Origin: Lachnospiraceae bacterium
GTDB lineage: Bacteria; Bacillota; Clostridia; Lachnospirales; Lachnospiraceae
Direction: 5' to 3'
Assembly: GCA_017617005.1 (NCBI GenBank)
Contig: JAFZWW010000138.1
Coordinates: forward strand, 1-59,573
DNA length: 59,573 nt
Numbering within the stretch: position 1 is the stretch's first letter; the number at the start of each line of letters is the position of its first letter. This document shows positions 2,592 to 24,293 of this stretch, one piece after another. The position numbers and the translations under genes were made by a program. The notes beneath the pieces were generated by a model. The model was not told where the DNA came from and ran no database searches. It was given only the letters and a program-made list of their open reading frames with translations.

Positions 2592-4300
2592 TAACGCTTT
2601 ACTACGGCCTTGTCCTTGCGGCATCGCTTGTTTGCACAACCATATATATGTACATGTGGCATAAGCATTTCGATACGAACTTTACGCTTATCTTTACGTT
2701 CGTACCCGTCGCATGCATCGGATATTTCTTTTCATCCATCGCTCAAAATCTGGGTGAAGCTCTTTTTGCGCAGAGGATCACATATCTCGGTGCATGCTTC
2801 CTGCAGCTTTTCATTGTGGAGAGTATATTCAATCTCTGCAGAATAGAGATCGGCAAATGGGTCAGGACCGCAATGTTCCTTCTCATTACTGCCGTCTATG
2901 CACCGGTATTGAACGTCGGCTTCGGTACTTCTTTTTACAGAAGTGCATCCTTCGAGATCGTTAACGGCCGTGGCATACTGACCAGGGAATACGGTCCCGC
3001 ACATACCGCGATCTATATTGTGTACATGCTCTTTTTCATCATCGGCATGTCCGCCATCTTCTATACCTGGATCAAAAAGAGACAGGTTTCGAGAAACGTG
3101 CTCAGCCTTCTCGTTCTTCCGTATGTCATAACGGTGCTTTTCTTTTTCGTGATCAGGAAGATCATCTCCGAGATCGATCTTGTTCCGGTCGGATATGTCC
3201 TGGCGGAGATCATTTATATCATCATCGCGTACAGGGTCAATCTCTACAACGTAAGCGATACCGTCATCGATTCGATGGTGCGTGACCGTGAGATAGGATA
3301 CCTGTCCGTAGATTTCAGGCGTAGGTTCCTAGGAAGTAACTCTACCGCAAGGAAGATCATTCCCGAACTCAGGGACAAGATCATCGATGAAGTCCTCGGC
3401 TACAAGCCTGCGGAAAGAAAGATCCGCCACTTCCTCGACAGCTTTGAAAAGGACGAAAAAGACAATACCTTCGCCTACACACTTCACGCGGAGTCCGGCA
3501 ATCCCGATGACGACAGGATCTTCAATGTCAATGTCGGATACTTGTACGATGGCGGAAGAAAGAGGGGCTATATCATCACGTTCACCGATGATACCGCCAA
3601 CAGAAAGTACATCCGCCTGCTTGATACATATAACGAAAAGCTTCAGAGCGAAGTGGATGAAAAGACGGCTCACATCGTCGAGATGCATGACAACCTGATC
3701 ATGAGTCTTGCGATGATGGTTGAAAGCCGCGACAATTCCACGGGCGGCCATATCAAGAGAACCAGCGAGGGCGTAAGGATACTGATCGAAGAGATCCTTG
3801 CGGAAAATGCGATGGAGCTCGATCCCGAATTCTGTAACGATGTCATCAAGGCGGCTCCCATGCACGACCTCGGTAAGATCGCAGTCGATGATGCGGTATT
3901 AAGAAAGCCCGGCAGGTTCACGGACGAAGAGTACAAGGAAATGCAGAAACACGCCGCAGAGGGTGCACGCGTTATCCATGAGATCCTTTTAAATACCGAG
4001 GATGAATCCTTCAAGGCAGTCGCTGAAAATGTCGCTCATTACCATCACGAAAGATGGGACGGAAGCGGATATCCTGAAGGAATCATGGGCCTGGATATAC
4101 CTGTTGAAGCACGTATTATGGCGATCGCCGATGTATATGACGCACTTGTTTCAAAGCGTGTCTACAAGGAAGCGTTCGATTTCGAAAAGGCTGACCGCAT
4201 CATAATGGAGGGTATGGGCACCCAGTTCGATCCCGCCCTCGAACCCGTCTACGTCAATGCCCGTCCCAAGCTGGAAGCCTACTACAAAAATCAGGGATAA
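2588..4300 (+). CDS. 7TM-sensor HD-GYP domain cyclic di-GMP phosphodiesterase
   Basis: A 570-residue membrane sensor that should hydrolyse c-di-GMP. Residues 1-230 hold seven hydrophobic segments like the histidine-kinase N-terminal 7TM domain. Residues 235-345 look PAS-like, then a short coiled coil leads into the HD-GYP domain. The metal-binding HD is in MHDLGKI (about 425-426), and HHERWDGSGYPEG (about 484-496) carries the GYP signature, so catalysis seems intact. The TTG start at 2588 lies 9 nt after GGAGG and overlaps the stop of the preceding small ORF. Its position beside flagellar genes fits control of motility versus sessility, though that is inference. Confidence 0.88.
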   Translation: MITLYYGLVLAASLVCTTIYMYMWHKHFDTNFTLIFTFVPVACIGYFFSSIAQNLGEALFAQRITYLGACFLQLFIVESIFNLCRIEIGKWVRTAMFLLITAVYAPVLNVGFGTSFYRSASFEIVNGRGILTREYGPAHTAIYIVYMLFFIIGMSAIFYTWIKKRQVSRNVLSLLVLPYVITVLFFFVIRKIISEIDLVPVGYVLAEIIYIIIAYRVNLYNVSDTVIDSMVRDREIGYLSVDFRRRFLGSNSTARKIIPELRDKIIDEVLGYKPAERKIRHFLDSFEKDEKDNTFAYTLHAESGNPDDDRIFNVNVGYLYDGGRKRGYIITFTDDTANRKYIRLLDTYNEKLQSEVDEKTAHIVEMHDNLIMSLAMMVESRDNSTGGHIKRTSEGVRILIEEILAENAMELDPEFCNDVIKAAPMHDLGKIAVDDAVLRKPGRFTDEEYKEMQKHAAEGARVIHEILLNTEDESFKAVAENVAHYHHERWDGSGYPEGIMGLDIPVEARIMAIADVYDALVSKRVYKEAFDFEKADRIIMEGMGTQFDPALEPVYVNARPKLEAYYKNQG

Positions 4301-4371
4301 TAAATTTTCGTTTCCCCCTAAACAAAATAATCAATATCTCCGATATACATTCTGTAAGGATAACTATACTC

Positions 4372-4411
4372 AAAAATGCATGGAAGCAATCATTGATTTC
4401 CATGCATTTTT
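4372..4411. terminator. bidirectional intrinsic terminator
   Basis: A perfect 14-bp stem (4372-4385 with 4398-4411) encloses a 12-nt loop. The stem starts with five A and ends with five T, so it can work on both strands. It lies 72 nt after the HD-GYP stop. The stem core is AT-rich, so it may be leaky. Confidence 0.65.
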
Positions 4412-4431
4412 GCATTCTGAAGTCATCTGTA

Positions 4432-4659
4432 AGGCGTTTGGCTCATATATCTGTTTCTGTGAATATAGAGTGAGCCGAGACAGTTCTTGAGAATGCATAC
4501 ATGAGCAAGCGAAGTTTTGCCCGGATGGCAAAACTAGCGAACACAAAGACAGGATGTCTTTTGTGAGCGGCGCTGTGACGTGCATGGGATGATGAGCATT
4601 CTCTAGAAATGTCCGGCGCAACGGCCATGAACAGAAACAGATATATGAGCCGAGCGCTT
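4432..4659 (+). ncRNA. candidate structured RNA element, copy 1
   Basis: The ends pair in a 29-bp stem (4432-4460 with 4631-4659); 21 bp are perfect Watson-Crick and the outer part uses three G-U type pairs. An inner 18-position stem (4479-4496 with 4596-4613) has two mismatches. Two hairpins sit inside: 4514-4521 with 4527-4534 (loop CGGAT) and 4542-4551 with 4555-4565 (GGA loop, ACAGGATGT). A third GGA lies at 4587-4589. The same layout recurs at 20341-20562 with different stem sequences that still pair. Strand is a guess: the wobble pairs suggest transcription in the + direction. No ORF is present. Confidence 0.6.
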
Positions 4660-4714
4660 GGGCTGTATGACACAATGTCAACAAAAAACGCTGTTATTTT
4701 TCGGTAAAATCGGA

Positions 4715-4720
4715 TATAAT
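4715..4720 (+). promoter_or_regulatory. probable mbl -10 box
   Basis: TATAAT lies 48 nt before the mbl ATG and just after the structured element. No strong -35 is visible. A 5' UTR of about 40 nt would include AAAGGGG as ribosome binding site. Confidence 0.45.
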
Positions 4721-4767
4721 AAATTGATTATTTATGTAAAGATTTATCCGAAAGGGGTTTTAAAGAA

Positions 4768-5766
4768 ATGGCAGCACTGGACATTGGCATCGATCTCGGA
4801 ACGGCATCCGTTCTGGTTTATATAAAGGGCAAGGGCGTTGTCCTCAAGGAGCCCTCGGTCGTAGCAATAGATAAGAACACCAAAAAGGTCAAAGCGATCG
4901 GTGAAGACGCAAGACTTATGCTCGGACGTACACCCGCGAACATCGTTGCGGTAAGACCTCTCAAGCAGGGAGTTATCTCGGATTACCAGGTAACCGAGAA
5001 GATGATGAAATACTTCGTACAGAAGGCAGTCGGACACAGACTTTTAAGAAAGCCCAGGATTGCCGTCTGCGTACCTTCCGGAGTTACCGAAGTCGAGAAG
5101 AAGGCGGTTGAGGACGCAGCTTACCAGGTAGGCGCAAGAGAGACCCTCATCATCGAGGAGCCCATCGCGGCAGCCATCGGTGCGGGAATCGACATCTCCA
5201 AGCCCTGCGGAAACATGATCGTAGACATCGGCGGCGGTACCACCGATATCGCAGTCATCTCACTCGGAAGTGCCGTAGAGAGTGCATCCCTCAAGGTTGC
5301 CGGAGATGATTTCAACGACGCGATCGTTAAATACATGAGAAAAAACCACAGCCTCAGCATCGGTGAAAGAACCGCTGAGGACGTGAAGATCAAGATAGGA
5401 ACATGCTTCAGAAGACCTGAAGTCGACAAGATGGAAGTCAAGGGACGTCACATCGTAAAGGGACTTCCCACATCCATCGAGGTTACAAGTGAAGAGATGG
5501 AAGAGGCACTTGAGGATTCCACCAACAGCATCGTTGAGGCAATCCACTCCGTGCTTGAGAGAACTCCCCCCGAGCTTTCGGCAGATATTGCAGACCGCGG
5601 AATCGTTCTTACCGGAGGAGGATCACTCTTAAGAGGCCTTGAAGATCTCATCACCGACCGTACCGGAATCACCTGCATGACCGCAGAGGATCCCATGACC
5701 GCAGTTGCGATCGGTACCGGAAAGTACGTCGAGTTCATCTCAACCTTCAGAAGCTCCATCGAGTAA
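4768..5766 (+). CDS. mbl: MreB/Mbl-family actin-like rod-shape protein
   Basis: This 332-residue bacterial actin forms membrane-associated filaments that guide lateral cell wall synthesis. It has the phosphate-1 motif (DIGIDLGTASV, residues 4-14), phosphate-2 (DIGGGTTDIAVISLG, about 153-167) and an adenosine-binding GGGSLLRGL (about 288). Its length matches Mbl/MreB. It is followed by two flagellar rod genes exactly as in Bacillus subtilis mbl-flhO-flhP, which supports the Mbl paralogue rather than MreB of the mreBCD cluster. No mreC or mreD is nearby. Ribosome binding site AAAGGGG is 11 nt upstream. Confidence 0.88.
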   Translation: MAALDIGIDLGTASVLVYIKGKGVVLKEPSVVAIDKNTKKVKAIGEDARLMLGRTPANIVAVRPLKQGVISDYQVTEKMMKYFVQKAVGHRLLRKPRIAVCVPSGVTEVEKKAVEDAAYQVGARETLIIEEPIAAAIGAGIDISKPCGNMIVDIGGGTTDIAVISLGSAVESASLKVAGDDFNDAIVKYMRKNHSLSIGERTAEDVKIKIGTCFRRPEVDKMEVKGRHIVKGLPTSIEVTSEEMEEALEDSTNSIVEAIHSVLERTPPELSADIADRGIVLTGGGSLLRGLEDLITDRTGITCMTAEDPMTAVAIGTGKYVEFISTFRSSIE

Positions 5767-5788
5767 GACTAAACTCAGGAGAGGATTT

Positions 5789-6565
5789 ATGGTCAAGGGA
5801 TTATATACAGCTTATACGGGAATGATCAACGAGCAGAACCGTATGGACGTTCTCAGTAACAATATGGCCAACGTCACGACCGTCGGCTTCAAGAAGGAAG
5901 GCTCAACCAGCCAGACCTTTGATGAAGTACTCGATCTTAAGATCAAGGATTCGACCGTAGGCTATAATCTCGCAACCAGGGAAGGCTATAACAGCAGGGG
6001 TGTCAAGATCGGTGAGAACTACACCGACTGGTCCCAGGGTTCGTTCAGGATCACGGGCAACACCTATGACATCGCAATCGGCGGAGACGGATTTTTCGCA
6101 ATAGAATTCACCAACAAGGCCGGACAGACCAGCACCAAGTATTCGAGGGCGGGCGAGTTCCAGCTCGACGAGACCGGAACCATCGTCACACACGAAGGAG
6201 ACTATCTTCTCGATTCGAACGGAAAGCATATCACCATCGATCCGTTAAAAGAAACAACGATCGACAGGGCGGGAAGGGTAATGCAGGACGGTAAAGTCCT
6301 TGCGACCATCCAGCTTCAGGATTTCGAGAATTACGATTATCTGAAAAAATACGGCGAGACCTATTGGGAGCCGATAGAGGGTGCACAGTTCAAGAAGGCT
6401 TCGGGCCAGCTCTACAGCGGATACCTTGAGGCATCGAATGTGCAGACCGTTACCGAGATGGTTAACCTGATCACCATCTCAAGACAGTACGAGAGTAACC
6501 AGAAGATAATCCAGACGATCGATTCGACTCTTGAAAAAGCAGTCAATCAGGTAGGAAGAGTCTGA
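5789..6565 (+). CDS. flhO: flagellar basal-body rod protein, FlhO/FlgF-like
   Basis: A 258-residue distal-rod protein of the flagellar axial family. The N-terminal MVKGLYTAYTGMINEQNRMDVLSNNMANVTTVGFKK carries the rod signature with the N-N-MANV-T-G-F pattern, and the C-terminal EASNVQTVTEMVNLITISRQYESNQKII helix is the matching axial heptad. The ATG at 5789 is preferred over an upstream in-frame start because AGGAGAGG lies 5 nt before it. It is 22 nt after mbl and 25 nt before the next rod gene. FlgF and FlgG types are hard to tell apart; FlhO is assigned from gene order. Confidence 0.88.
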   Translation: MVKGLYTAYTGMINEQNRMDVLSNNMANVTTVGFKKEGSTSQTFDEVLDLKIKDSTVGYNLATREGYNSRGVKIGENYTDWSQGSFRITGNTYDIAIGGDGFFAIEFTNKAGQTSTKYSRAGEFQLDETGTIVTHEGDYLLDSNGKHITIDPLKETTIDRAGRVMQDGKVLATIQLQDFENYDYLKKYGETYWEPIEGAQFKKASGQLYSGYLEASNVQTVTEMVNLITISRQYESNQKIIQTIDSTLEKAVNQVGRV

Positions 6566-17695: not shown

Positions 17696-18694
17696 ATGGT
17701 TAAGACGATCATCCTGATAATGTTTCTTGCTATAGTGTCCGCCTTTTCCGGAAGGACACTGATGCTTTTGTCCGGTATCTTTTCAAAAAAGGATACCGAT
17801 CTGTTTTCAACATTTTCCGCAGGCTCACTGCTCGTCATTGTCATCTCCTTCGTCTCACATTTTCTGACGCTCGCAGGTGACGGACTCATCTCCACGGAAA
17901 AAAGATACAGCGGAATACTCATGGTCGTAGCGATGACCGTGGGTTATTTTGCGTTCGTTATCCTTACCGTCATAAAGGGTAAGAAGGAAAAAGAGAAAAA
18001 GGAAAAAGAGAAAGTAAAGGGCGCCGCGGTACTATTCTGTCTGGCAGCGGTCGTTCTTTCGGTCGCATGCTTCATTACGGTCGTGCAGGGCGGGAGAATC
18101 AATTCGACAGGCGATGAGACTTTTGAGACTGTTGTGACTTTCCTTAAGGGAGAACCGATGTACACCATTGATCCCATTACGGGATCTGCTTATACGGAGG
18201 GACTTCCTTCGAGATATAAGATACTCTGCCTGAGCGGTTTTTATTCCGTTCTCTGTGAGGCTTTCGGTACCGCTCCCGATCTGCTCCTTCATTCGATAAT
18301 GCCGGGCTTTTGGTTTGTGTCGGGATTATGTGCGATGACCGCCCTTTCGGGCGCACTGTTCAAGGGCTTGAAGGATGCACTTTTAAAAAGGTCCGTGCTC
18401 GTATCTTCGGCGATCCTCTTCATCTTCGCTGCGGACCTTTCGTCATATGCTCAGGGCTTTGCTGTTCTGTCTGCGATGTGGACCGGCGGAGCGATAAGAG
18501 GCTGGGTGCTCATTCCTTTCCTGCTATACTGCCTCTTTGACGGAAGATATTTGATCGCACTTCTTCCCGTTATCTGCGAAGCTTTCATCTGCAGGACACA
18601 GTACGGCATAGGATTCTGCGCATGCGTTTATGTGGGATTCATTCTGTTTATGTTCATTTTGAAAAGGAGGTCTAAATGCTCAGAGGCCTCATAA
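17696..18694 (+). CDS. polytopic membrane protein, possible GT-C-like, unknown function
   Basis: This 332-residue protein has about eight hydrophobic segments. A highly charged KEKEKKEKEK loop sits near residue 98 between segments 3 and 4. A DETFETV motif in an extracytoplasmic loop (about 140-146) resembles the acidic loop of GT-C enzymes using polyprenyl-phosphate sugars, but this is weak. The next gene overlaps its end by 19 nt and could be the second half of a protein that is single-chain elsewhere. It is 14 nt after the GtrB-like gene, so a shared pathway is likely. Confidence 0.6.
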   Translation: MVKTIILIMFLAIVSAFSGRTLMLLSGIFSKKDTDLFSTFSAGSLLVIVISFVSHFLTLAGDGLISTEKRYSGILMVVAMTVGYFAFVILTVIKGKKEKEKKEKEKVKGAAVLFCLAAVVLSVACFITVVQGGRINSTGDETFETVVTFLKGEPMYTIDPITGSAYTEGLPSRYKILCLSGFYSVLCEAFGTAPDLLLHSIMPGFWFVSGLCAMTALSGALFKGLKDALLKRSVLVSSAILFIFAADLSSYAQGFAVLSAMWTGGAIRGWVLIPFLLYCLFDGRYLIALLPVICEAFICRTQYGIGFCACVYVGFILFMFILKRRSKCSEAS

Positions 18695-19521
18695 ATGATC
18701 ACATACTTCATCTCAGGGAATGCATGATGATAAGCTCGAGTCTTCTGGTCTCACTTTCTGCGGGCTTTGCATGCCTTGTACTTTCGGGAAAGAAGACCGA
18801 CGTGAGGATAAGGGCACTCCTTGGTTATATCACAGCAGCTTTGATTGTCCTTGTATGTCCGGTCACTGCATCGGTGTTAAGAATAGTTACGGGAACATAT
18901 TATGACTCGCCCGATATGTGGAACATTATTCCCCTGATCCCGGTCGGTGCCGTAATGACTGCGGTGCTTTTTGACGAGCTTTATTCAAGGGAAAAGAAGA
19001 TCTCGTTACTTGCGGTAGTACTCTTTACGGTGGCGATCCTTTTGTGCGGTTCGCTCGGAAGAGTCACCGGGAATTCATCCGGAAGACCCGAGAATGCAGG
19101 CACTGATGAAAAGATGATCGCAGAGATGATCTTCGAAAAGAAACTGCTTGGCGGCAACCAGACGATACTTGCACCCGATGATGTTATCGCCTACCTGCAT
19201 GTTTATTCCGCAGATGCGAGAACTCTTTACGGGCGCGATATGTGGGACGGAAGGCTTACCAAGAACAGGTACGGCTTCTATTCACAGGAACTTACAGATA
19301 TCCATGAAGATATGATAAAAGTATCGAACGGAGAAAAGGAACTCTGTGCGGATCTTTGCCGGAGGGCCTTCGAACAGGGTGCAACTGTTGTGATCCTGCC
19401 TCCGAACGGATATGATGTAGATGTGCTCACTGAAGGGGGATGTGCGCCGATTATTCTTGCGACGGGAAGTGACGGCAGCGGATACGCACTCGTCACGCCT
19501 GTGGATCCGTTTGAAGGATGA
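18676..19521 (+). CDS. membrane protein with C-terminal extracytoplasmic domain, unknown function
   Basis: A 281-residue protein with four hydrophobic segments up to about residue 130 and then a soluble domain of about 150 residues that should lie outside the cell. That domain contains LAPDDVIAYLHVYSADARTLYGRDMWDG and an ATVVILPPNGYD strand, of a kind often found at the end of large bacterial GT-C membrane proteins. With the preceding gene (19-nt overlap, AAGGAGG ribosome binding site) it may form a split version of such a transferase. No family is claimed. Confidence 0.6.
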   Translation: MLRGLINDHILHLRECMMISSSLLVSLSAGFACLVLSGKKTDVRIRALLGYITAALIVLVCPVTASVLRIVTGTYYDSPDMWNIIPLIPVGAVMTAVLFDELYSREKKISLLAVVLFTVAILLCGSLGRVTGNSSGRPENAGTDEKMIAEMIFEKKLLGGNQTILAPDDVIAYLHVYSADARTLYGRDMWDGRLTKNRYGFYSQELTDIHEDMIKVSNGEKELCADLCRRAFEQGATVVILPPNGYDVDVLTEGGCAPIILATGSDGSGYALVTPVDPFEG

Positions 19522-19572
19522 TCTTTGCCATGCGACACAGGTTTGAGTTTTTGTTTTTGGAATCTGAGGATT

Positions 19573-20322
19573 ATGGTCAGCGTAATAGTACCGGTTTATA
19601 ACCTCGAAAAGTATATATCGGCTACTTTGGACAGCATCACTTCCCAGGGAATTCCCGATATGGAAGTGCTGCTTGTTGACGATAAAAGTACGGATTCTTC
19701 CGTTTCGGTCATCAATGATTACATTGCATCACATCCGGATGCGGGAATAAGGCTCATCGAGCCCGAGGGAAAGCTCAAGGCATGCGGAGCAAGAAATCTG
19801 GGTATCCGTGAAAGTAAGGGAAAGTACATCGCCTTTCTCGACGGAGACGACCTCTGGGTGAAGGAAAAGTTAAAGCACCAGCTTGCATTCATGGAAGAGA
19901 AGGGCTGCGGTTTTTCTTTTACCGGATATGAATTCGCGGACGAAAACGCCTGTCCCATGGGCAAGATCGTCAGGGTGCCGGAGACCATTTCATATTCGCA
20001 GGCACTCCGCAACACCACGATCTTCACATCGACCGTCATTTTCGATACGGAGATCGTGAAAAAGGAAGACATAGTCTTCCCCGACATCCTTTCCGAGGAT
20101 ACCGCCCTCTGGTTTGCACTCCTCAGGAAGGGCTATAAGGCATGCGGCTTGAACGAGAATCTGACGCTCTACCGCCGCACGGGCAACTCACTTTCCTCCG
20201 ACAAGAAGGATGCCGCCCGCCGTATCTGGAACCTTTACCGCCGCTCCGAAAAGCTGTCGCTTTCGCGCAGCATTTTCTCTTTCATCGGCTGGGGCTTCAA
20301 CGCCGTTAAACGCAGAATATAA
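19573..20322 (+). CDS. glycosyltransferase family 2
   Basis: A 249-residue GT2 enzyme: VSVIVPVYNLEKYI at the N-terminus, VDDKSTDSS near 37, an ARNLG motif near 75 and the metal site DGDDLWV near 91. The acceptor loop SEDTALWFALL lies near 172. The ATG at 19573 was chosen because it begins the GT-A fold directly; an upstream TTG at 19525 would add a Cys-rich extension. Only a short GAGG precedes it. It is followed by a structured intergenic element rather than a simple terminator. Confidence 0.82.
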   Translation: MVSVIVPVYNLEKYISATLDSITSQGIPDMEVLLVDDKSTDSSVSVINDYIASHPDAGIRLIEPEGKLKACGARNLGIRESKGKYIAFLDGDDLWVKEKLKHQLAFMEEKGCGFSFTGYEFADENACPMGKIVRVPETISYSQALRNTTIFTSTVIFDTEIVKKEDIVFPDILSEDTALWFALLRKGYKACGLNENLTLYRRTGNSLSSDKKDAARRIWNLYRRSEKLSLSRSIFSFIGWGFNAVKRRI

Positions 20323-20340
20323 TAATTGTATGTATCTCAT

Positions 20341-20562
20341 GGCCTTGGACACATATATGCATTTTTGTGAATAAAGTGAGCCGTAGTATTTCTTGGGAAT
20401 TTATATATCCTAAGTGGCATTTTGCCCGGATGGCAAAATGAGTGAACAGCAGACACGGATGGCTGCTGTGAACGACACGTAATTTGCCTGATATTCGGCA
20501 AATTCCTTAGAAATACAAGGCGAACGTCCGTTGAACAAAAATACATATATGTGTCCAAGGCC
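20341..20562 (+). ncRNA. candidate structured RNA element, copy 2
   Basis: The ends (20341-20368 and 20535-20562) form a 28-position stem with one mismatch. An inner stem (20386-20402 with 20500-20516) has one T-T mismatch at the same place as one of copy 1's mismatches. Hairpin A is 20418-20426 with 20432-20440 (loop CGGAT). Hairpin B is 20446-20455 with 20460-20469 (loop CGGA). Conserved unpaired words shared with copy 1 are GTGAATA, AGTGAGCCG, GGCG and TGAACA. An alternative hairpin (20481-20488 with 20497-20504) competes with the inner stem. No ORF is present. Confidence 0.6.
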
Positions 20563-20572
20563 TGTGTATATA

Positions 20573-20581
20573 TGGTATAAT
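20573..20581 (+). promoter_or_regulatory. extended -10 promoter for leaderless gene
   Basis: TGG precedes a perfect TATAAT at 20576-20581. The next gene's ATG is at 20591, about where transcription should start, and no ribosome binding site can fit. The same arrangement occurs at 32-50. Confidence 0.5.
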
Positions 20582-20590
20582 TAATTGATT

Positions 20591-21577
20591 ATGGGCAACG
20601 CACTGATATCCATCATAATACCCGTCTACAATGCCGCGGAATACCTCGAGCGGTCGATCGGCAGTGTCCGCAACCAGACCTACAAAAAACTCGAGATAAT
20701 CACGGTCGATGACGGTTCGAAGGATGACAGTCTGAAGCTCTTGAATTCCTTTGCGTCAGCGGACAGCCGCATCAAGGTTATCAGTAAGGAAAACGGCGGA
20801 TCTTCCACGGCAAGGAATGCCGGTTTAAAGCAGGCAACGGGTGAATACATCGGATTCATCGATGCGGACGATTATATTGAGCCCGATATGTATGAGAACC
20901 TGGCGAAGATCCTCGACGAGGATCCGAAGGCAGACGTTTCCCAGATCCTTTCGTGCGAAGAGAACGAAAAGGGAGAACCCATAAAGGCATTCGGTGAAGA
21001 CTTCCTTCCTGATGATGAATTTACAGGCAAGAGTTTTTTCAGAGCGCTTCTCCTTCATCAGGGCGACAGCTCCTTTTGTACGAAGCTTTTCAGAAAGGAA
21101 TTCTTCGAAGGCTTTTCTTTTCCGGAAGGAAGGCTGAACGAGGATTTCGATCTGCTCGTGAAGATGAGCGAAAAGCTGGAGCTTCTGAAGGTCTGCAAAA
21201 AGCCCGGCTATCATATAATCCTCAGCACCGAGAGCAACACGAGGGGCACGTACAGACAGTCCTTCTATGAAAACTCGATGGAAAATGCCGAGAAGATGAT
21301 GGCGCTTGCCGCGAAGAAATATCCTGAGCTCAAACAGGAAGCGGCACACTTTTATCTCGTGCAGGCAATGTGGCTTCTGCTTCACATCCCCGTTTCGGAG
21401 ATGAACAAAGAAAACGAGCTGTACACAAGGGTCTACGGAAAAGTTAAGGCCCATAAGGGCTTCATCCGCAGGGATCCTTACCTTACGAAGAAGCAGAGAA
21501 GAAACCTTTTGATATTTGCATACCTTCCCGCAAAGAGCGTTAAGAAGCTCTTCGGAATGATAAAGAAGACGAAATGA
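20591..21577 (+). CDS. glycosyltransferase family 2
   Basis: This 328-residue GT2 enzyme has ISIIIPVYNAAEYLERSI at the start, VDDGSKDDS near 38, GGSSTARNAG near 67 and DADDYIEPD as metal site near 92. A basic C-terminal tail (KSVKKLFGMIKKTK) may bind the membrane. The ATG at 20591 lies 9 nt after TATAAT with no ribosome binding site, so the mRNA may be leaderless. The stop overlaps the following sugar transferase start (ATGA), so the two are translated together and probably add the first and second sugars of one glycan. Confidence 0.85.
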   Translation: MGNALISIIIPVYNAAEYLERSIGSVRNQTYKKLEIITVDDGSKDDSLKLLNSFASADSRIKVISKENGGSSTARNAGLKQATGEYIGFIDADDYIEPDMYENLAKILDEDPKADVSQILSCEENEKGEPIKAFGEDFLPDDEFTGKSFFRALLLHQGDSSFCTKLFRKEFFEGFSFPEGRLNEDFDLLVKMSEKLELLKVCKKPGYHIILSTESNTRGTYRQSFYENSMENAEKMMALAAKKYPELKQEAAHFYLVQAMWLLLHIPVSEMNKENELYTRVYGKVKAHKGFIRRDPYLTKKQRRNLLIFAYLPAKSVKKLFGMIKKTK

Positions 21578-23019
21578 TATTAGACGAAAAGCAAAAGAAA
21601 AAAGCGCAGTTAATGGAGAGCACCAAGCGGATCATCAACCTTTCGCTTGTGATGGGATGCCTTGCCCTCGAGATAGCATCCTTCGGTTTCCATTGGTATT
21701 TCCATTTCCGTCACAGTGTAGTTGAACCTCTGAGATATTTCTATTTCAAGGGACACGTTCTCGAGATCATGGTCTACGGCATCATCCTCTTTCTGATCTC
21801 GAACATGTACGGCGGAATGAGACTCGGGTATCTGAAGAATTCCGAGATCGTATTCTCGCAGCTCTTCTCGACCGTGCTTGCGGATATCTTCATCTGGGGC
21901 GAGCTTTCGCTTCTTGCAAACCAGCCCTTCAAGCTTCCGTACTTTCTCATGATGGGAACGGAGCAGCTCATAATCGTGCTGATCTATATACCCATCGCGA
22001 ACAAGATCTACAGACATATCTTCCCTCCGAGAAAGCTTCTGCTAATCTACGGCAGTGCCAATAAGGATACGCTTTCCGAAAAGTTCGAGACCAGGAAGGA
22101 TAAGTATGTCATCACCGACCGCATCAAGGCCGAGGAAGGCTACGATGCGATCGTAAAACGCATCAGGGACGGATTTTCCACCGGCAAGATCAACGCCGTT
22201 GTCATAGGCGATATGTCCGTCGCACAGAGAAAGCCTCTGATCAAATACTGCTACGGCAATTCCATCAGGTTCTATATGCTTCCCAAGATAGGGGATGTCA
22301 TCCTTTCCGGAGCGGAAGAGCTTCACGTATTCGATTCACCCATACTCCTTACGAGGGAGTATTCGCTTACGGTCGAGCAGAGAGTCATCAAGCGTACGAT
22401 CGATATCGTATTTTCGCTTCTGCTCATAATCCTTACATCACCCTTCATGCTCCTTACCGCGATCGCGGTCAAGCTCTGCGACAGGGGCCCCATCCTCTAC
22501 AGGCAGATCCGCTGCACAAGGGATGCAAGGGAATTTACTATTTACAAGTTCAGGTCGATGAGAGTCGATGCCGAGAGTGACGGTGTCGCAAGACTTGCGA
22601 GCAAGGGCGATACTCGTATCACTCCCGTCGGTAAGTTCATCAGGAAATGCAGACTCGATGAGCTTCCCCAGCTCTTCAACATTCTTAAGGGCGATATGTC
22701 CTTCATAGGACCCAGACCCGAGCGCCCCGAGATCATACAGCAGTATGTCGAAGTCATGCCCGAGTTCGCATACCGCATGAAGGTCAAGGCCGGGCTTGCG
22801 GGCTTTGCACAGGTCTACGGAAAATACAACACAACTCCTTACGACAAGCTCAAGCTTGATCTGATCTATATCGAGCAGTATTCACTTATGCTCGATCTTA
22901 AACTTATGCTTCTTACTCTTAAGGTCCTTATGTGGCCCGATTCGACCGAAGGTGTCGAGAAGGAACAGATAACGGCTCTTAAGAACGGTCAGGACGATTC
23001 ATATAAACAGGAAGACTGA
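21574..23019 (+). CDS. undecaprenyl-phosphate sugar-1-phosphate transferase (initiating)
   Basis: A 481-residue polyprenyl glycosylphosphotransferase that starts a polysaccharide by moving a sugar-phosphate to undecaprenyl phosphate. Residues 15-150 have four or five membrane segments, 155-265 a nucleotide-binding-like soluble domain, then a membrane helix (about 275-297) and the catalytic bacterial sugar-transferase domain: YRQIRCT, YKFRSMR, the LDELPQLFN core (about 364) and FIGPRPERPE (about 382). All catalytic landmarks are present. It overlaps its neighbours by 4 bases (start) and 1 base (end), so it is in a tight operon with three GT4 genes. Confidence 0.92.
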   Translation: MILDEKQKKKAQLMESTKRIINLSLVMGCLALEIASFGFHWYFHFRHSVVEPLRYFYFKGHVLEIMVYGIILFLISNMYGGMRLGYLKNSEIVFSQLFSTVLADIFIWGELSLLANQPFKLPYFLMMGTEQLIIVLIYIPIANKIYRHIFPPRKLLLIYGSANKDTLSEKFETRKDKYVITDRIKAEEGYDAIVKRIRDGFSTGKINAVVIGDMSVAQRKPLIKYCYGNSIRFYMLPKIGDVILSGAEELHVFDSPILLTREYSLTVEQRVIKRTIDIVFSLLLIILTSPFMLLTAIAVKLCDRGPILYRQIRCTRDAREFTIYKFRSMRVDAESDGVARLASKGDTRITPVGKFIRKCRLDELPQLFNILKGDMSFIGPRPERPEIIQQYVEVMPEFAYRMKVKAGLAGFAQVYGKYNTTPYDKLKLDLIYIEQYSLMLDLKLMLLTLKVLMWPDSTEGVEKEQITALKNGQDDSYKQED

Positions 23020-24293
23020 TGAAGGTATTGTGGCTCTGTAATATCATACTTCCGAAAGTCGCGGCAAAAATGGGACTTAAAGCCTCCAACAAGGAAGGGT
23101 GGCTTTCGGGTGCCGTAAGCGTCGCGGAAAAAGGCGGTGAGTTCGAGCTCGGTGTCTGTTTTCCCGTCGGAAAAGAAAACGACGGATTTTACCTTGAAGA
23201 CGGAGTGAAGTATTACGGATTCTACGAAGACACATCGGCTCCCGAGGTCTACGATCCTTCTCTTGAAGACAGACTTTCTTCCATAGTCGAAAAGTTTCAG
23301 CCCGATATAGTCCACATATTCGGAACGGAATTTCCCCACACCCGTGCGATGGCACAGGTCATGAAGGACCGCCCCGAGCGTATCCTCATCGGTATCCAGG
23401 GAGTTCTCGATATCTACAAGGATCACTTCTTTGACGGACTTCCCGAAAGAGTTATTAACCGTGTGACATTCAGGGACTTTGTAAAAAAGGATTCCCTTAA
23501 GATCCAGCAGAGAAAGTTCGCACTCCGTGCGGTAAATGAGATAGAGGCGCTTAAGATCGCAGGAAACGTTACCGGAAGAACTCCTTTCGATAAGGGATTT
23601 ACTTCCAAGGTTAATCCTGAGGCTAAGTATCATTTTATGAATGAAACGCTCCGTGCGGACTTTTATGAGCGCTCCCTTGCGGGCGGCGCGGAAAGACCCG
23701 AAGTCGAAGCCCATTCAATATTCCTGAGCCAGGGCAATTATCCCATAAAGGGTGCGCATATGATGATCGCCGCACTCGCCAAGCTGAAGGAAAAATATCC
23801 GGATGCTAAGGTTTACATTGCCGGCGACAATGTGACAAAGCATTCGACGTTTAAGGAGAGGCTGAAGCTTTCTTCGTATGATAAATATCTCCTCGAGCTT
23901 ATCGGTGAATATTCACTTGAAGATTCGGTCATATTTACGGGAAGTCTTGCGGTTTCCGATTATATAGACAGGCTTTCGAAGAGTAATGTCTTCGTATGTC
24001 CTTCATCCATCGAAAATTCTCCCAATTCGCTCGGCGAAGCGATGATGCTCGGTGTTCCCTGCGTATCGGCAAATGTCGGAGGCGTATCGGGGATCTTCAA
24101 TGATGGCAAGGACGGAATATTGTATGAGTTTTCGGATGTTGATGCACTTGTGACAGCTGTGTCGGAAATGTTCGATAACCCGGAAAAAGCTGCGGAGTAT
24201 GCGGCAAATGCTTCCGCACATGCAATGGCCACACATAATGCGGCTGTGAATTATTCGAGGCTGGTTGAGATCTACAAAGGAATAGCAGGTTGA
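23019..24293 (+). CDS. glycosyltransferase family 4
   Basis: A 424-residue GT-B fold enzyme. The N-terminal acceptor domain contains HIFGTEFPHTRAM (about 103). The C-terminal donor domain has the loop GNYPIKGAHMMIAALAKL (about 244) and the retaining-enzyme E-x7-E motif in CPSSIENSPNSLGEAMMLGVPCV (about 327-350). It is 1 nt overlapped with the preceding stop and shares its layout and N-terminal MKVLWL start with the gene at 25421, so the two are paralogues. Both likely elongate the glycan started by the sugar transferase. Confidence 0.87.
   Translation: MKVLWLCNIILPKVAAKMGLKASNKEGWLSGAVSVAEKGGEFELGVCFPVGKENDGFYLEDGVKYYGFYEDTSAPEVYDPSLEDRLSSIVEKFQPDIVHIFGTEFPHTRAMAQVMKDRPERILIGIQGVLDIYKDHFFDGLPERVINRVTFRDFVKKDSLKIQQRKFALRAVNEIEALKIAGNVTGRTPFDKGFTSKVNPEAKYHFMNETLRADFYERSLAGGAERPEVEAHSIFLSQGNYPIKGAHMMIAALAKLKEKYPDAKVYIAGDNVTKHSTFKERLKLSSYDKYLLELIGEYSLEDSVIFTGSLAVSDYIDRLSKSNVFVCPSSIENSPNSLGEAMMLGVPCVSANVGGVSGIFNDGKDGILYEFSDVDALVTAVSEMFDNPEKAAEYAANASAHAMATHNAAVNYSRLVEIYKGIAG

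Follow-up and report, generated by a model that had tools for sequence, protein, structure and literature searches.

CsrB, CsrC, RsmX, RsmY and RsmZ are small RNAs that sequester CsrA by way of GGA (ANGGA) sequences in hairpin loops. A similar role for the clostridial TwoAYGGAY RNA was put forward in a paper that we take to be the work of Gardner and Eldai. TwoAYGGAY was first described in 2010, according to the accessible part of that report (PMC2864571), and the available portion of the later paper (PMC4333381) matches it to the CsrA-binding motif and proposes, from motifs and without validation, that CsrA-sequestering small RNAs exist in Clostridia. The CsrA-decoy idea is therefore already published from motif matches, and the accessible parts of the literature on TwoAYGGAY or RF01731 contain no test of function. 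As a measure of what a good binding site looks like, the available text of PMC4005645 gives the high-affinity RsmE/CsrA site as an ANGGAX hexaloop placed directly on a stem, with departures such as dropping the N costing 10- to 1000-fold in affinity, and that of PMC6692469 gives (A/U)CANGGANG(U/A) as the consensus. TwoAYGGAY resembles the Csr and Rsm RNAs in presenting GGA (ANGGA) in hairpin loops, in having sites that are summed over copies, and in co-occurring with csrA. It differs in enclosing two sites per RNA in a long closed helix, in its many scattered gene copies, in CsrA binding that is only predicted, and in having no known upstream control.

The window considered here, meaning the whole stretch of 59,573 nucleotides of a Lachnospiraceae bacterium (contig JAFZWW010000138.1), holds two elements that an initial annotation had placed at 4432-4659 (copy 1) and 20341-20562 (copy 2), and both are present at those positions. 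The annotation had matched them to no known RNA family and had proposed a comparison with Rfam; that comparison (cmscan, Rfam 15, gathering score 43 bits) identifies both as TwoAYGGAY (RF01731, a member of clan CL00106), with copy 1 scoring 68.3 bits and copy 2 scoring 56.4 bits. These are the only two matches in the window above the gathering score; TD-1 on the reverse strand, ZMP/ZTP and the others in the scan fell below the cut-off and were treated as chance. The two copies share 69% identity across 211 bases (BLAST), and their genome (G000) has six TwoAYGGAY copies. Family membership, a paired fold and selection on pairing establish both elements as genes for TwoAYGGAY RNA. What the annotation saw is right, and its novelty is not, the RNA family being already known. 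The features of the two copies, all on the forward strand, are as follows.

4432..4460, forward strand: copy 1 outer closing helix, 5' arm; 29 bp, from the fold and orthologue covariation, outside the Rfam model
4464..4627, forward strand: copy 1 TwoAYGGAY core; RF01731 model 1-168, cmscan 68.3 bits
4513..4535, forward strand: copy 1 hairpin A, from predicted folds; loop CGGAT at 4522-4526, its GGA a candidate CsrA contact
4542..4565, forward strand: copy 1 hairpin B, from predicted folds; loop GGA at 4552-4554, closed by ACA/TGT
4631..4659, forward strand: copy 1 outer closing helix, 3' arm; from the fold and orthologue covariation
20341..20368, forward strand: copy 2 outer closing helix, 5' arm; 19 bp, one mismatch, 8 bp, from the fold
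20370..20531, forward strand: copy 2 TwoAYGGAY core; RF01731 model 1-168, cmscan 56.4 bits
20418..20440, forward strand: copy 2 hairpin A, from the fold; loop CGGAT at 20427-20431
20446..20469, forward strand: copy 2 hairpin B, from sequence and fold; CACGGATG at 20454-20461, which fits CANGGANG
20535..20562, forward strand: copy 2 outer closing helix, 3' arm; from the fold

Fold and pairing

The predicted fold of copy 1 reaches -109.9 kcal/mol (z -12.4), where 200 dinucleotide shuffles average -62.0 +/- 3.9; that of copy 2 reaches -94.5 kcal/mol (z -10.1), where the shuffles average -51.6 +/- 4.2. None of 200 shuffles is as low in either case. The common fold described in the initial annotation, with a closing stem, an inner stem and two GGA-loop hairpins, is predicted in both copies. 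Both match the full Rfam model, which includes the inner stem and the two hairpins; they depart from it in the outer helix, which covaries and which the model omits, and in hairpin B of copy 1, where a bare GGA triloop stands in place of AYGGAY. The corresponding loop of copy 2 is CGGA. Beyond the model, the outer helix comprises 29 bp in copy 1, and 27 of 28 positions are paired in copy 2.

Stems that change in sequence and yet stay paired had been read as a mark of selection on structure, and this reading is borne out by four orthologues of copy 1, whose comparison reveals compensation stronger than two copies alone could show. When window positions 4200-4830 were searched against 31 genomes of the genus, copy 1 turned up in G701, G697 and G116 as well, always at the matching site that separates mreB from the upstream gene. 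On the copy 1 fold, a reference structure derived from one of the tested sequences and so biased in its favour, 90.7% of 344 alignment cells are paired against 86.0% in shuffles, and 17 of 87 pairs are changed on both sides against 7.3 +/- 1.8 in shuffles (0 of 500 as high). Slid structures, used as a control, gave only 1 to 4 doubly changed pairs. Further pair types were no more numerous in these four sequences than in shuffles, of which 208 of 500 reached at least the same count. By helix, 8 of 31 pairs of the outer helix are changed on both sides with 99.2% of cells paired, and 4 of 9 pairs of the hairpin A stem are doubly changed with 100% paired; hairpin B has no compensatory change among the four orthologues, and pairing is poorly preserved in helix 3 (67.5% of cells) and helix 6 (25%).

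Wider comparisons drew on a set of 206 copies from 72 genomes, made up of 115 of about 150 places in a family sample and part of the longer phylum and genus lists. In 56 genus copies anchored by GA/GA (19 of the 206 copies lacked the anchor and were left out of this analysis), the six most frequent base combinations include all four Watson-Crick pairs at 11 of the outer helix's first 20 positions, and two or three of these pairs at the remaining nine. Over the first 18 positions of the same copies, 83% pair with their own partner against 51% with that of another copy. Arm pairing in 124 copies with 60-nt flanks (1 of 125 was left out for short flanks) has a median score of 32.5, where mismatched arms give 11.5. 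Some mismatched arms score high, to a maximum of 38.5 that is exceeded by 10 of the 124 true arms, because copies within one genome can share arms. The mismatched-arm controls rule out chance inverted repeats as the source of the arms. The outer closing helix outside the Rfam model is real and, since it covaries, the RF01731 model is too short.

Distribution, csrA and loop motifs

Further homologues, for which the initial annotation had suggested a search, were found in many Clostridia. At E <= 1e-3 the RNA is present in 45 of 299 genomes of the family sample, of which 43 have it over the cut-off and 14 have at least nine matches. It is also present in 51 of 398 genomes of the phylum sample (34 over the cut-off; 25 family codes) and in 17 of 31 genomes of the genus, where contig C1 of G692 carries three copies. 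The downstream gene, scored for 178 copies (28 of the 206 were left out for short flanks), is on the same strand in 53, on the opposite strand in 67 and undecided in 58. This lack of orientation bias favours a trans-acting RNA, and without a fixed neighbour orientation the Rfam label "cis-reg" is doubtful.

Twelve pairs of copies lie within 600 nt of one another among the 206, of which 11 are divergent (head to head) and one is tandem. Seven of the 11 are in the window's own genus, with a spacing of 126-177 nt, so the divergent pairs are not independent. Outside that count, four more close pairs occur, divergent ones in G702, G707 and G479 and a tandem one in G479. Head-to-head pairs of this kind resemble divergent genes. 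At loci L226, L212, L213, L240, L241 and L153, in several species of the genus, head-to-head copies have a near-constant spacing of 126-138 nt, and inspection by eye suggests inverted homology between the centres of the G704 and G716/G692 pairs, which have GGGACGGTTCTG-like words. No shared promoter was obvious by eye in the middle of six divergent pairs. In a pattern scan upstream of 194 copies (12 of the 206 were left out), the strict sigma-A pattern was not enriched (3 of 194 against 6, 12 and 7 in three control stretches), and a sigma-28 pattern was not found before copies in general. Eight copies in G066 (L027, L128, L135, L139, L141, L142, L147 and L149) have imperfect inverted repeats across all 160 nt examined per side, lengths that come from a permissive stem-extension procedure; four of these copies have flanks that extend to TAGGGACGGATACC-like words.

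The gene csrA, detected as PF02599, accompanies the RNA in most genomes. In the family sample it is present in 43 of 45 genomes with the RNA against 110 of 254 without it (Fisher p 4e-12); for the phylum sample the figures are 48 of 51 with the RNA and 236 of 347 without (p 4e-5). Five genomes sit in both samples (G000, G180, G207, G257 and G261). Restricting the counts to RNA matches over the cut-off leaves csrA in 41 of 43 and 32 of 34, respectively. The genus itself shows no association, with csrA in 15 of 17 genomes that have the RNA and in 12 of 14 that do not, and it is uninformative on this point because csrA is nearly fixed there (27 of 31). A quick RpoB tree was built for 70 genomes from a sample enriched for the RNA, which 39 of them have and 31 do not (10 of 80 genomes, G000 included, had no RpoB-domain match and were left out); on this tree the RNA changes at least 19 times. 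The tree-corrected csrA test, on 14 independent pairs, averaged 3.9 the same way and 0.0 opposite, with a median sign-test p of 0.125, which is not significant. In addition, csrA marks motile genomes, and the effects of motility and of the RNA are unseparated in the counts. The raw association is strong and nearly always in one direction; it is not proven free of ancestry or motility.

Five genomes have the RNA and no csrA match: G000, G168, G479, G532 and G707. The window's own genome, G000, is an assembly 86.8% complete in which the RpoB-domain match is likewise absent. G479 is 94% complete with 12 RNA matches (4 over the cut-off), and 7 of 8 of its hairpin loops keep GGA, hairpin picking being rough for hairpin B. 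G532 is 75% complete with RNA below the cut-off, and G707 is 90% complete.

The CsrA-like motif is found on a single strand of the core. The 206 cores (33.6 kb) contain 227 instances of CANGGANG, where mononucleotide shuffling gives 9.0; the 78.1 kb of flanks hold 28, and the cores read on the reverse strand have none. Of the 206 copies, 199 have one or more of CANGGANG, CAGGANG and CCCGGAYGG in the core, in searches that favour GGA loops because the Rfam model was trained on them. GGA in hairpin loops more than once per RNA is a property of the window copies and of other copies. In the window GGA is in both loops of both copies, with exact CANGGANG only in hairpin B of copy 2; the hairpin motifs of copy 1 are CCCGGATGG and ACAGGATGT, and the whole window set is CCCGGATGG twice, ACAGGATGT and CACGGATG. 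By the rules in the accessible text of PMC4005645, these hairpins would range from good to weak CsrA sites.

A different loop word, CACGATG, is found in 27 of the 206 copies, seven of which have none of the three GGA types. Genomes G008, G241, G694 and G096 include copies without any GGA type although csrA is present, and in G008, whose CsrA has no visible change, only one of five copies keeps a GGA type. In 19 CsrA proteins of genomes with the RNA (19 of 21 loci; G004 and G122 were left out as unread), the residues aligned to L4, R6 and R44 are conserved, and an altered CsrA was not seen among eight proteins from CGA-loop lineages, one of them cut short.

Mobile copies and the mreB locus

The initial annotation had set identical-ended transposable repeats against the RNA idea. 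This holds in part for genus g176, where copies are MITE-like repeats, and not for the window's own genus, where the element is inherited at the mreB site with compensation. Like bacterial MITEs, the g176 copies form a unit of ~312 bp with sharp ends, GATTCGGGTGTCAAAAGG/CCTTTTGACACCCGAATC, that are terminal inverted repeats, and at least 15 matches to L104 in G176, the query itself apart, cover this one unit (starts at query 358-378, ends at 691-708). They also have apparent 9-bp target duplications: with unit ends set by eye, the 9-nt flanks of nine copies are alike at 6.3 of 9 positions within a copy against 4.0 between copies (permutation p 1.6e-4; a smaller set of five copies gave p 0.008), and two of the nine (1 and 4 of 9 matching) have no duplication. 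The L104 flanks stand nearer each other, without the unit, in G734, G726 and G747; a difference in the spacer prevents nucleotide-level alignment of the empty site in G734/G747. G122 and G060 also have ends of the form GATTNGGGTGTCAAAAGG, nearly as in G176, yet only 13 of 205 copies carry such ends on both sides (1 of the 206 was left out). Unlike MITEs, the window copies have no shared ends, and their arms vary in sequence and stay paired; no shared terminal inverted repeats were seen by eye among the six G000 copies. Part of the TwoAYGGAY family thus travels as a MITE-like element, and nothing in the window copies points to this at present. Because copy 1 was inherited at one mreB site with compensatory changes, mobility does not remove the RNA reading.

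The history of copy 1 can be followed at that site. The mreB upstream regions of G706, G707, G717, G713, G704, G696, G692 and G705 are without the full element, and six of the eight hold no trace of it scoring above shuffles. In G704 a 32-nt stretch (27 of 32 identical) resembles the 3' end of the element and scores above 300 of 300 shuffles, and a weaker match in G713 is also above 300 of 300. Since stretches like the element are present in these two genomes, they may as well have lost an older copy by decay as the others may have gained one by later insertion. From 4664 onward, G706 and the window share 99% identity. A promoter-like TATAAT at 4715-4720, downstream of copy 1 and before mreB, is common to the eight species without the full element, and a terminator-like hairpin ends ~20 nt before the left arm of copy 1. 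A copy 1 transcript could come from read-through or from a promoter inside the arm.

Further upstream of mreB (4768), window positions 4319-4411 form a block conserved in 12 of 12 aligned genomes of the genus. It contains a sigma-28-like promoter (TAAN-N16/17-CCGATATA), followed in most genomes by TGTAAGGATAAC or a near variant and then by a terminator-like hairpin with CAYGGANG in its 5' arm (CATGGAAG in the window, at 4379-4386). The promoter is named for its likeness to the sigma-28 consensus. Upstream of mreB/mbl in named Lachnospiraceae and relatives (76 loci; 4 of 80 were left out as too short), CANGGANG is found at 53 loci against 5.2 expected from shuffling, 1 on the reverse strand and 12 in an equal gene stretch. 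The promoter pattern is found at 37 of the 76 against 0.5 expected, the two occur in order at 32, and a terminator-like hairpin follows the promoter at 31. Judged from these patterns, the promoter-hairpin block could be a CsrA-responsive terminator before mreB and the flagellar rod gene; no literature on CsrA attenuation of flagellar genes in Lachnospiraceae was found. The rod gene (FlgF/FlgG type; Pfam Flg_bb_rod, Flg_bbr_C) lies at 5705-6562, directly behind mreB, and marks the genome as that of a flagellated lineage, though no csrA was found in its incomplete assembly. Copy 2 lies within a polysaccharide cluster at 17696-24290 with glycosyltransferases, a bacterial sugar transferase and DUF6077.

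Readings of the element

We consider it somewhat more likely than not that TwoAYGGAY RNA acts as a CsrA decoy, the most probable of the readings compared here and one in which the separate transcript, the binding of CsrA and the regulatory outcome are all predicted. The long outer helix and inner stems would hold up and protect two hairpin loops presenting GGA, commonly as CANGGANG, and a CsrA dimer would bind the two hairpins. Several copies per genome would add up to a CsrA sponge, which would relieve CsrA repression, in Clostridia mainly of flagellar genes. In favour of this reading are the RF01731 matches, the enrichment of CANGGANG on one strand, the conserved CsrA residues, the co-occurrence with csrA, the lack of orientation bias and the mostly head-to-head close pairs. 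Counting against it are the tree-corrected result, the five genomes without a csrA match, the CACGATG loops, the unenriched sigma-A pattern and the stretch of only ~20 nt by which the terminator-like hairpin is set off from the left arm of copy 1.

The sharp-ended unit of G176 raises the alternative that the element is primarily a non-autonomous MITE-like mobile element, whose fold serves transposition or its own persistence and from which the host gains nothing. The likeness of the 9-nt flanks in nine copies with ends chosen by eye, the closer L104 flanks in three genomes without the unit, and the nearly identical ends in G122 and G060 all speak for it. We nevertheless consider it unlikely, given how few copies have such ends on both sides, the lack of common ends in the window's own genus, and the shared site of copy 1 in four species, among which 17 pairs are changed on both sides. 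Compensation that keeps pairing is not expected of a pure insert, and the CsrA-like motif is confined to one strand of the core. A quite improbable reading is that of a cis-acting leader or intergenic processing element, the Rfam type "Cis-reg", governing the stability or translation of neighbouring transcripts. It would suit the same-strand genes that flank each window copy, the capacity of a long intergenic hairpin to stop RNases, and an origin of copy 1 by read-through or from a promoter within its arm. The counts of 53 same-strand and 67 opposite downstream genes among 178 copies show no fixed orientation, copy 1 lies upstream of the promoter-like site kept in eight species without the full element, and the 2010 discovery table, in the part of PMC2864571 available, gives cis-reg as "n". 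Cis-regulation of mreB by copy 1 is disfavoured by that downstream site and the orientation counts.

It is also doubtful, to about the same degree as a purely mobile element, that the AYGGAY/ACGAU loops bind another protein or RNA and not CsrA. Recurrent CACGATG loops in lineages with ordinary CsrA, the RNA in a few genomes without a csrA match, and a tree-corrected csrA test short of significance are what such a partner would explain; CsrA itself is favoured by most loops, which match its consensus closely, and by csrA in 43 of 45 and 48 of 51 genomes with the RNA.

The proposed decoy mechanism, already published, gains support together with some counter-evidence from these comparisons. New here are the support from csrA co-occurrence, an outer helix that extends the structure beyond the Rfam model, and orientation counts that go against the "cis-reg" label. 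With csrA co-occurrence and enrichment of CsrA sites on one strand, what had been a motif-based guess becomes testable in a culturable relative. If correct, the decoy reading would provide a CsrA sponge outside Gammaproteobacteria, spread partly by mobile elements. A broader and more speculative picture, which we put forward tentatively and rate as rather improbable in its entirety, is that of a mobile CsrA sponge: MITE-like decoy carriers would spread in motile Clostridia, multiply, and then become fixed by the host as a dispersed array with dose set by copy number, the copy that precedes mreB and the flagellar rod gene here being an example. Since copy 1 follows closely on a sigma-28-like promoter and a terminator that may respond to CsrA, it would then close a feedback loop.
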